NCBI GenBank assembly: GCA_947501275.1
Contig: CANMVD010000002.1
Coordinates: 372,001 to 436,000 of the forward strand
Length of the DNA: 64,000 nt
DNA from: an uncultured Tateyamaria sp.
Lineage (GTDB): Bacteria > Pseudomonadota > Alphaproteobacteria > Rhodobacterales > Rhodobacteraceae
Reading direction: 5' to 3'
Part shown: in pieces, positions 60,632-63,051 of the stretch
Layout of the letters: each line of letters starts with the position of its first letter
Position numbering within the stretch: the stretch's first letter is position 1
The notes under the pieces: generated by a model
Told to the model about the DNA's origin: nothing
Seen by the model: the letters and a program-made list of their open reading frames with translations, nothing else
Databases searched by the model: none
Program-made: the position numbers and the translations under genes

Positions 60632-61819
60632 TTATTGCACTTTTTCCAGCGCCTGCAGCACATCGGCCAGCAAATCGGCAGACGCTTCCAACCCGACGGA
60701 CATGCGCACGAGGCCCGGCGTAATGCCAAGCGCGTCCTTTTGATCCTGCGGCAATCGCTGATGCGTGGTTGTGGCGGGGTGAGTCAGAATCGATTTCGCG
60801 TCACCCAGGTTGTTGGAAATAATCGGGATGGTCAGTGCGTTGAGAAAAGCAAATGCCGCCTCTTGTCCGCCTGCGAGATCCAGCGACAGAACCGTACCTC
60901 CACTGCCGCCCATCTGACGTTGCACCAAAGCATTCTGGGCGTGCTGGGCATGGCCTGGATAGATGACGCGGGCCAAGGCGTCGTGCCCGTGCAGCGCATC
61001 AGCCAGCTCCGCCGCGGTGGCCGCCTGAGCGCGCACCCGTAGATCCAGCGTCTCAAGCCCCTTGAGCATTACCCAAGCCGTAAATGGCGACATCGCGCCA
61101 CCGGTATGCTTCATGTAAGGCTCAACCGTTTTGCGGATGAATTCCTGCGTCCCAAGGATGATCCCCCCCAAGGCGCGCCCCTGCCCGTCGATATGCTTGG
61201 TGGCCGAGTAAATCACCACATCCGCCCCTTGCGCGATCGCATCCGAAAACACCGGCGTGGCAAAGACATTATCGACCAGAACGGTCGCCCCAACCGCGTG
61301 GGCCAGCTCCGAGACTGCCGCAATGTCGATCACCTCCAGCGTGGGGTTGGAGATGGATTCGAAGAACACTGCCCGAGTGTCAGGCGTGATCGCCGCGCGC
61401 CATGCGTCCAGATCGGTCCCGTCGACAAATTCCACCTCAACACCATAGCGGGTCAGAACTTCCTCCAGCACGTAGAGACAAGACCCAAACAAAGCCCGCG
61501 CAGACACAACTCGGTCGCCTGCCTTCAGCATGGATGTCAATGCGCCGGACACAGCCGCCATGCCAGACGCCGTGGCAAAGCCATCCTCGGCGCCTTCAAG
61601 CATCGCAATGCGTTCTTCGAACATTGCGACCGTTGGGTTGCCATAACGGGCATAGATGAACTCGTCCTCACCCGCGGCCTCAAAGCGCTGTGCCGCCGCC
61701 TCGGCACTGTCATACACAAAGCCTTGGGTGAGAAAGATCGCCTCACTCACTTCACCATATTGGCTGCGGCGGGTGCCGCCATGGACCGCAGCAGTGCGGG
61801 GATGCCATTTGCTGGACAT
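60632..61819 (-). CDS. metZ: O-succinylhomoserine sulfhydrylase
   Basis: 395 residues, Cys/Met metabolism PLP family: YARYGNPTVAMFEERIA, GMAAVSGALTSML, the PLP Lys in YSATKHIDGQGRALGG and SVGLEASADLLADV near the end. It makes homocysteine from O-succinylhomoserine and sulfide. The SAM-II-like leader upstream supports the methionine-pathway assignment. Confidence 0.93.
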   Translation of the reverse strand: MSSKWHPRTAAVHGGTRRSQYGEVSEAIFLTQGFVYDSAEAAAQRFEAAGEDEFIYARYGNPTVAMFEERIAMLEGAEDGFATASGMAAVSGALTSMLKAGDRVVSARALFGSCLYVLEEVLTRYGVEVEFVDGTDLDAWRAAITPDTRAVFFESISNPTLEVIDIAAVSELAHAVGATVLVDNVFATPVFSDAIAQGADVVIYSATKHIDGQGRALGGIILGTQEFIRKTVEPYMKHTGGAMSPFTAWVMLKGLETLDLRVRAQAATAAELADALHGHDALARVIYPGHAQHAQNALVQRQMGGSGGTVLSLDLAGGQEAAFAFLNALTIPIISNNLGDAKSILTHPATTTHQRLPQDQKDALGITPGLVRMSVGLEASADLLADVLQALEKVQ

Positions 61820-61860
61820 ATCTCAAACTCCGTAACGGGCCTGAAATGGGGTCAGGCCAC

Positions 61861-61900
61861 AAAAAACCCCCAGACGCGGGTCAAGCGAAAGGGGGGCTTT
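61861..61900 (-). terminator. Attenuator-type terminator in the metZ leader
   Basis: The minus strand reads AAAGCCCCC, a 20-base loop, then GGGGGTTTTTT. Five C-G pairs extend through G-U and three A-U pairs to a 9-bp stem ending in T6. It lies between the riboswitch aptamer and the metZ start 42 bases further on. Confidence 0.85.
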
Positions 61901-61906
61901 CATCCT

Positions 61907-61986
61907 GACCTTTTAGCGGAATTTATCGGTCAGCCTTGCCAAGAAGACGCCAAAGTGGCCCGCAATCCGGTAACAAATCGCCACAT
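61907..61986 (-). promoter_or_regulatory. SAM-II riboswitch upstream of metZ
   Basis: The minus strand has P1 GTGGC (61984-61980) paired with GCCAC (61959-61955). Loop L1 GATTTGTTACCGGATTGCGG carries the conserved GATTT, ACCG and ATTGC elements, and the 3' side carries GATAAAT (61927-61921) and GCTAAAAGG (61917-61909). CC..GC of L1 pairs with GC..GG of the 3' strand in the SAM-II pseudoknot. The 3' loop is about 25 bases longer than in minimal SAM-II. It should lower metZ expression when S-adenosylmethionine is abundant. Confidence 0.85.
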
Positions 61987-62109
61987 CTCAGGGGTTACGA
62001 TCCTGCGCGGGGCGCGTCAACACCGTCACGGTGCTGTAACCCAAATTTCATCCGCACGTCATATGCCTGCCCCATAGCGACCCCACAACATGTGGTAGGA
62101 GGCGCTGAA

Positions 62110-63051
62110 ATGCCGATCCTCAGACTAAATGCGACAAATGCGGGTGTATCACTTGATGGCTCACCCGCGTCAGCATGGGCGTCTATCCGTCATGCCGCCA
62201 CACACGGGACGGGCCCGGTCATCATCATGGTGCACGGTTTCAAATATGATCCCGAATGCGCGTCCTGTTCGCCGCACGAAACGATCTTTGGGCGCGCGTC
62301 CAGCCACGATTCCGCACACATCGCGCAATGGCCCCGCCCCCTCGGCTTTTCGACCGAACAGCCCGACCAAGGGCTCGGGATCGCGTTTGGCTGGCGAGCG
62401 CGGGGCGATCTGTGGAGCGCGCAACGATCGGCACACAGCGCAGGGCGCCATCTGGCCCGCGTGATCACCCACCTGCACAAGGTTGCTCCGCAACGCCCGA
62501 TTCATGCAATCACCCACTCCATGGGATCCGAAGTTGTGTTTAAAGCGCTGCACCATCTGCACCCTGGCACTTTGACCCGGATCATCGCCCTGAGCGGGGC
62601 AAGCTACACCAGTCGCGTCTGCGCAGCGATGCAAACGCCCGCCGGAACTACGGCCGAGTTGTTCAACATTACCAGCCGCGAAAACGATCTGTTCGATTTT
62701 GTGTATGAGCGGCTGATGGCGCCACCGACGCCGCAGGATCGGGCTATGGGCACAGGCGTCCATGCGCCCAATGCGGTGAATATCCAGCTGGATTGCACAC
62801 GCAGCCTTTCTGTTTTGACCGGCTTTGGCGCGCATATTGCGCCTCCCAATGCGCGGGTCTGTCACTGGTCCAGCTACACTCGCCCCGGCGCTTTGCAATT
62901 TTACGGCCACGCCATGCGTCGCCCCCAAGACGTGCCCCTGCATGCCCTGCAACAGGATTTGCCGTCCGCGCCTGATCGGCGCTGGTCACGCATCTTTGCG
63001 CGCGCCCACCTGTCGCTGCCCTTGCCGCTGTCCCAGAAAACCGCATCATAA
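62110..63051 (+). CDS. Alpha/beta hydrolase fold protein
   Basis: 313 residues. Oxyanion-type VIIMVHGFKYDPE, nucleophile elbow THSMGSEV with Ser, then ALSGASYTS, and a plausible acid/His pair later (FYGHAM). No signal peptide. It resembles DUF900-like serine hydrolases; substrate unknown. AGGAGG precedes ATG 62110. Divergent from metZ; the metZ leader occupies the shared region. Confidence 0.82.
   Translation: MPILRLNATNAGVSLDGSPASAWASIRHAATHGTGPVIIMVHGFKYDPECASCSPHETIFGRASSHDSAHIAQWPRPLGFSTEQPDQGLGIAFGWRARGDLWSAQRSAHSAGRHLARVITHLHKVAPQRPIHAITHSMGSEVVFKALHHLHPGTLTRIIALSGASYTSRVCAAMQTPAGTTAELFNITSRENDLFDFVYERLMAPPTPQDRAMGTGVHAPNAVNIQLDCTRSLSVLTGFGAHIAPPNARVCHWSSYTRPGALQFYGHAMRRPQDVPLHALQQDLPSAPDRRWSRIFARAHLSLPLPLSQKTAS

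Follow-up and report, generated by a model that had tools for sequence, protein, structure and literature searches.

The window, a stretch of 64,000 nucleotides from an uncultured Tateyamaria sp., carries on its minus strand the methionine biosynthesis gene metZ, preceded by a leader in the order TTGACG box, P1 with the SAM-II L1 motifs, enlarged loop, GCTAAA, GGTCAGGATGAAAGCCCCCC, T6 terminator, short hairpin and start codon. The next gene after metZ is folE2 (GTP cyclohydrolase; 60532-59366, minus strand), whose true start probably lies downstream of the first ATG in the ORF. Divergent to metZ is a plus-strand ORF (61936-63051) for a DUF900-like alpha/beta hydrolase (PF05990); since its mechanical start falls inside the riboswitch, its translation probably begins at the ATG at 62110. 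The features of metZ and its leader are as follows.

60632..61819, minus strand: metZ, O-succinylhomoserine sulfhydrylase, the gene predicted to be controlled (TIGR01325, 532.1 bits with a cut-off of 510; PF01053, 407 bits)
61838..61858, minus strand: hairpin GGCCTGA/TCAGGCC, between the U tract, which it directly follows, and the ribosome-binding site; congeners carry it with changes
61861..61900, minus strand: predicted intrinsic terminator, stem 61900-61892 with 61871-61863, T6 at 61866-61861
61910-61904 with 61885-61879, minus strand: predicted antiterminator outer helix, GGUCAGG with CUUGACC, in the pre-terminator fragment (-15.1 kcal/mol)
61902-61897 with 61891-61886, minus strand: predicted antiterminator inner helix, UGAAAG with CUUUCG, part of the same predicted fold
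61910-61908, minus strand: pseudoknot 3' strand GGT, the beginning of GGTCAG (61910-61905)
61917-61912, minus strand: conserved GCTAAA, invariant in 9/9 and 15/15 aligned sequences
61908..61925, minus strand: rest of L3 (TAAATTCC), within the second piece matched by RF00521 (12.1 bits)
61926..61953, minus strand: extra hairpin P3, outer stem 61953-61950 with 61929-61926 in the minimum-energy fold (MFE) of the insert
61949-61931 and 61948-61944 with 61937-61933, minus strand: P3 single pair and inner stem, from the same insert MFE
61955..61984, minus strand: SAM-II P1 and L1, with P1 formed by GTGGC (61984-61980) and GCCAC (61959-61955) and L1 containing GATTT, ACC and TTGC
61971-61969, minus strand: pseudoknot 5' strand ACC, within L1
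62015..62020, minus strand: likely -35 element TTGACG, with TAACCC (61997-61992) 17 nt downstream

Of 128 distinct upstream stretches, 117 carry TTGAC within the 60 nt preceding GATTT, compared to a shuffled rate of 9%, and in 70 of those 117 it lies 40-41 nt upstream. A sigma-70 scan returned no promoter-like site at the position of the TTGACG box.

The initial annotation had read a SAM-II riboswitch before metZ, and its landmarks (GATTT..ACCG..ATTGC, GATAAAT and GCTAAAAGG) were verified on the minus strand in letters and position, as were CTGACC, GGTCAG, the T6 tract and GGCCTGA/TCAGGCC; the downstream metZ and the presence of a terminator were confirmed as well. The P1 pairs are present in all nine long congeners aligned, with a compensatory change at one pair in L001 and L002, and AGGU directly follows GCUAAA in 9/9. 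The ACC/GGU pseudoknot is possible in the window, and CCGACC/GGUCGG is visible by eye in L145-L147. L1 and the pseudoknot strand both depart from the family norm in L040 (1372-1488) and L097 (1461-1577), where the altered letters are GTCCAGC with TCGGCC and GTCCAGC with AAGGCCC; these double changes may represent natural pseudoknot covariation. In L021 (1343-1420), a Tateyamaria metagenome-assembled genome, GAGTT replaces the conserved GATTT in L1 and the loop hairpin has another sequence.

The covariance model RF00521 (gathering score 36), which the initial annotation had named as a check, gave no match reaching gathering in the window. At a permissive threshold it matched in two pieces, one of 23.7 bits over P1 and L1 (61985-61952, model positions 10-44, E 0.0026 for 401 bases searched) and one of 12.1 bits over the 3' part (61936-61893, E 3.6). 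All six compact relatives tested pass the cut-off with the whole model covered (49.8-61.3 bits). None of ten hairpin-bearing relatives in the family does: eight score 22.3-26.9 bits and L001 and L021 are absent from the matches at E 1 or less, in a set of ten that includes L080, which begins inside P1 at a contig end. Two of five distant hairpin elements pass (38.9 and 36.5 bits) and three fail, and overall the curated cut-off misses 14 of the 16 hairpin-bearing elements tested. Across the class, RF00521 was detected in 189 of 385 genomes at E 0.001 and above the cut-off in 166. A search of the window's own genome gave no RF00521 match, but as the same search also matched 0 of 14 control genomes, this negative is uninformative by itself. 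The low, split score in the window is due to the insert. Since compact relatives score in full and hairpin-bearing relatives match in part, the core is homologous to accepted SAM-II elements, and it is on this homology, and not on a gathering-level match, that the class assignment is based. Judged in this way, the window leader is a SAM-II riboswitch preceding metZ, and its class predicts that it binds SAM. Matches in the window to rimP, CRISPR-DR57, sR23 and MIAT were far below their cut-offs and were rejected.

In the parts of Corbino et al. (2005; PMC1273637) compared, the A. tumefaciens SAM-II element binds SAM with an apparent Kd of about 1 uM, and many SAM-II elements are followed by putative terminators. 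The window shares with SAM-II as described there (RF00521) the P1, L1 motifs, GCUAAA and pseudoknot strands, as well as the methionine gene downstream and the terminator after the aptamer; it differs by 24 more bases, arranged as a P1-L3 hairpin, and by scoring below the cut-off in two pieces. The S. meliloti metZ leader likewise places SAM-II over metZ, with a terminator predicted to form on SAM binding (PMC9373788), and the text portions of that paper compared do not mention an extra hairpin. The SAM-II long loops model RF01726, from Bacteroidetes and marine samples (PMC2864571, in the part compared), resembles the window by its name, which denotes SAM-II with longer loops. It gave no match in the window at E 10 or less, and none in 16 relatives or the five distant hairpin forms at E 1 or less; the window is set apart from RF01726 by this model score and not by a comparison of loops, and a hairpin at the same point of RF01726 elements is possible.

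The core from GATTT to GCTAAA measures 68 nt in the window compared to 44 nt in compact congeners, so that the 3' loop, as initially annotated, is enlarged, here by 24 nt. Compact aptamers fitting the search pattern (n=79) span 42-45 nt. The insert starts about one base after P1 and replaces GTT of GTTAAACATTTCC of the compact congeners, and the A-rich end of L3 stays in place. To assess pairing, the nine long congeners were aligned with the L004 stem as the given structure for P1 and P3. P1 and P3 together were paired in 82.6% of cells compared to 76.2% in shuffles (0/500 as high), nine pairs were changed on both sides (2/500 shuffles) and slid structures paired only 36-52%, while the number of pair types was not in excess (17 vs 16.4; 238/500). 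For P3 alone, 8 of 11 pairs were changed on both sides and 74.7% of cells were paired; L001 has its inner stem shifted by one column in the MFE.

Folding of the inserts gave a similar picture. Against dinucleotide shuffles, better folding was obtained for 16 distinct, partly related inserts taken from the window, its genus and further members of the family (Fisher p 2.6e-11). Five of the 16 have a single p above 0.05, namely L080 (0.15), L001 (0.11), L002 (0.07), L005 (0.06) and the window, whose own P3 is the weakest of all (0.35). For six additional inserts the Fisher p was 1.2e-4, with single values of 0.007-0.16. An unstructured enlarged loop was rejected on the covariation and folding of the inserts. 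These comparisons indicate that the 24 additional nucleotides fold into P3, a hairpin located where P1 meets L3, with pairs that covary among the nine congeners. In L007 (1336-1404) the pseudoknot strand has a second copy, GGTCAGG, inside the P3 insert.

Of the aptamers fitting the pattern, 76 of 79 compact ones but only 6 of 20 with the hairpin have a standard outermost (sixth) P1 pair (Fisher p 5.6e-10, treating sequences as independent). On a 64-row tree, five well-supported independent comparisons between P3 and this pair were available; a mean of 2.9 pointed towards loss of the pair with P3 and 0 in the opposite direction, which is not significant (sign test p 0.25). That P3 stacks on P1 in place of the sixth pair is therefore only a suggestion.

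We then considered the sequence downstream of the aptamer. Before the 3' arm of the terminator is present, GGUCAGGAUGAAAG and CUUUCGCUUGACC are predicted to fold into a 13-pair hairpin (-15.1 kcal/mol), in which the pseudoknot strand is paired; once the 3' arm is present, the terminator is the minimum-energy fold (-17.1 kcal/mol). Counting any downstream partner, the pseudoknot GG was paired downstream in 108 of 109 leaders, the exception being L073; the L021 fragment in this count ended before its true partner. When a different fragment was folded and the minimum distance was raised, GG was paired in 98 of 102 distinct leaders, 4 failing, compared to 51% of shuffles, and the energy z averaged -3.1.

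Conservation of the antiterminator was examined in a hand-picked set of 65 of the 102 platforms, which left out odd ones such as L057, L059, L073, L121, L125 and L131, and in all 102. In the hand-picked set 91.3% of cells were paired (outer helix 96.5%, inner 85.2%), and 16 cells were changed on both sides compared to 5.0 in shuffles (0/500), the pairs changed on both sides numbering 4 vs 3.2 (187/500). For all 102 platforms, 87.9% of cells were paired compared to 86.6% shuffled (0/500) and 25-66% slid (outer helix 94.9%, inner 81.8%). Sixteen cells were changed on both sides vs 10.3 (15/500), the score was reached by 22/500 shuffles, and pairs changed on both sides numbered 5 vs 5.2 (363/500); five of the six slid versions carry more both-side-changed cells (23-31). 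The antiterminator pairing is thus well conserved across the family at the level of sequence, with modest covariation that is insufficient alone. In the terminator stem 88.3% of cells were paired (65 sequences) with weak covariation, and a slide by one column keeps 90%. Comparison and folding of the leaders place the conserved competitor of the pseudoknot strand at UUGACC inside the terminator loop, and give an antiterminator, using the 3' strand of the aptamer, that is mutually exclusive with the terminator. Because the pseudoknot strand pairs inside the terminator loop, the terminator would be the output of the switch and not the separate element initially annotated.

The initial annotation had been right that GGTCAG has a partner excluding the pseudoknot, and had placed that partner in the enlarged loop, where CTGACC (61933-61928) would pair with GGTCAG and open the pseudoknot while the terminator acted separately. 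The two motifs form six Watson-Crick pairs in the window only, although L004 also reaches six when G-U is allowed. When the loop stretch was shuffled, CTGACC arose in 0.6% of cases and any of the five 6-mer partners of GGTCAGGATG in 3.7%; the complementarity exceeds chance only marginally, before allowing for the free choice of motif. Over nine congeners 75.9% of cells were paired compared to 20-50% slid, yet none of the six pairs was changed on both sides, the 3' side being invariant, so that the alignment of metZ leaders from relatives yielded no covariation of CTGACC with GGTCAG. CTGACC falls in the 3' arm of P3, which does covary, and four of its six letters pair inside P3 in the insert MFE. 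GGTCAG is also found in compact congeners, which do not have the loop, and is therefore not kept for a helix with CTGACC; across genera it is not universal, with GGTCAC, GGTCGA and others in its place. A conserved CTGACC/GGTCAG switch was rejected, and we consider this reading very improbable.

A further partner, CCUGACC (61856-61850) in the leader hairpin, could add a layer of translational control: in the read-through transcript GGUCAGG would pair with it around the terminator, freeing UCAGGCC to pair in the vicinity of the ribosome-binding site. The whole-leader MFE contains this pairing (-62.6 kcal/mol, z -2.4, 4/200 shuffles as good), and CCTGACC is kept in most congeners listed. That GGUCAGG pairs with CCUGACC and not CUUGACC in the full-leader MFE is also expected after the terminator has formed. 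On the other hand, the hairpin GGCCTGA/TCAGGCC needs the same letters as CCTGACC; L012 and L021 alter CCTGACC and keep the GGCCTG/CAGGCC hairpin or a G-U form of it; and beyond the nearest relatives, in other genera, the CCTGACC stretch and the position of the post-terminator hairpin have different sequences. Such a layer is unlikely, though less so than the loop switch. The whole-leader MFE (61985-61817) also closes the region of the ribosome-binding site, and among 73 distinct post-terminator stretches 25 beat their shuffles at p 0.05 or less (median p 0.12). Three partners had been annotated for the one strand; only UUGACC, which was not among them, competes with the pseudoknot in a conserved way.

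The best 80 of 515 confirmed metZ relatives were fetched. Among these, the Tateyamaria records include both compact and hairpin forms, and congeners were placed in Tateyamaria when their riboswitch letters were identical to those of Tateyamaria records. The hairpin is present in 10 of 20 genomes of the genus: the core measures 66-72 nt in nine, 56 nt with a short hairpin in one and 44 nt in nine, while the remaining genome, G203, matched neither the long nor the compact pattern. In the family, the long-form pattern matches 6 of 394 genomes, two of them in the window's genus. A blastn search within the family with the window leader matched 160 of 198, and many of the matches listed end at or skip the insert. 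Six family hairpin forms outside Tateyamaria (L080, L088, L105, L106, L121 and L122) precede metZ, with 71-78% identity. Across the class, the pattern matched 10 of 385 genomes, comprising the window, five SAM-II elements with a loop hairpin and four (L143, L148, L149 and L150) dropped as chance, having no P1 visible in their letters; this count used a widened L1 pattern, as a stricter version needing four bases before CC misses other L1 forms. The five distant elements belong to family groups f116 (3 genomes), f128 and f137, and all five precede a gene with 50-56% identity to the window MetZ. Differing hairpins therefore recur in other Rhodobacteraceae and in three further alphaproteobacterial family groups.

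On a metZ tree of 44 rows (38 different), the hairpin trait needs 7 changes compared to a shuffled mean of 13.8, and well-supported branches alone force 3. The 15 compact Tateyamaria rows (9 different sequences) group in a single supported clade that excludes the hairpin rows of the genus. The tree, whose deep branches are weak, suggests an old hairpin in the genus, lost there a single time, and separate gains elsewhere.

We propose that the window leader is a SAM-II riboswitch that attenuates metZ transcription and in which the extra P3 separates the 3' strand of P1 from L3, and assign this reading a probability of about 0.8. Comparison and folding support the aptamer core, P3, the antiterminator and the terminator. 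Without SAM, GGUCAGG would pair with CUUGACC and the inner helix would form, giving an antiterminator that keeps the C-run of the terminator in its loop, so that metZ would be read. With SAM, the pseudoknot would take GGU and block the antiterminator; the terminator would then form, transcription would stop near 61861 and metZ would be off. SAM binding and the direction of this control are what the class and its homologues lead us to expect.

What P3 contributes is a more tentative matter. Neither the conserved core nor the A-rich end of L3 is displaced by its insertion, and P3 would most likely stack on P1 at its open end, which usually lacks the sixth pair. In the part of the crystallographic study compared (PMC5352136), the SAM-II structure is named as three helices, P1, P2a and P2b, and two strands, L1 and L3. 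P3 may tune the rate of folding or the stability of the element, rather than ligand recognition. An effect of this kind is expected by analogy with P4 of preQ1-II, likewise a peripheral helix in a pseudoknot riboswitch, which takes no direct part in ligand readout and can be deleted with minor consequences for binding, but which matters for kinetics (PMC11625349, in the part compared); preQ1-II has another ligand and belongs to another class, and the likeness is one of analogy only. It is conceivable, at somewhat less than even odds, that this is a recurrently evolved three-stem form of SAM-II, in which P3 on P1 replaces the outermost pair and retunes folding rate, Mg dependence or SAM sensitivity, and of which the curated Rfam cut-off misses most members.

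About as likely, P3 is a neutral insertion that is tolerated and does not influence switching. P3 varies in sequence and in length, with hairpin-bearing cores of 54-78 nt overall, it was gained or lost at least 7 times on the metZ tree, and compact and hairpin forms precede the same gene within one genus. Against neutrality, compensatory changes preserve the P3 pairing, which suggests selection against an unpaired insert; this compensation, in turn, might reflect no more than a hairpin being less harmful to the fold than loose sequence. As far as the literature searched goes, the attenuator itself is ordinary and the novelty lies in the hairpin: no report of a SAM-II element with an extra hairpin or stem was found in the main texts of the open-licence literature, and one may still be published.

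Together, these results show that the compact SAM-II fold can accommodate a third stem at one site, an event that probably occurred repeatedly, and that most hairpin-bearing SAM-II leaders are missed when annotation relies on the curated model. With both forms placed before the same gene on near-identical platforms, a single genus offers natural pairs in which the effect of a peripheral helix could be measured.
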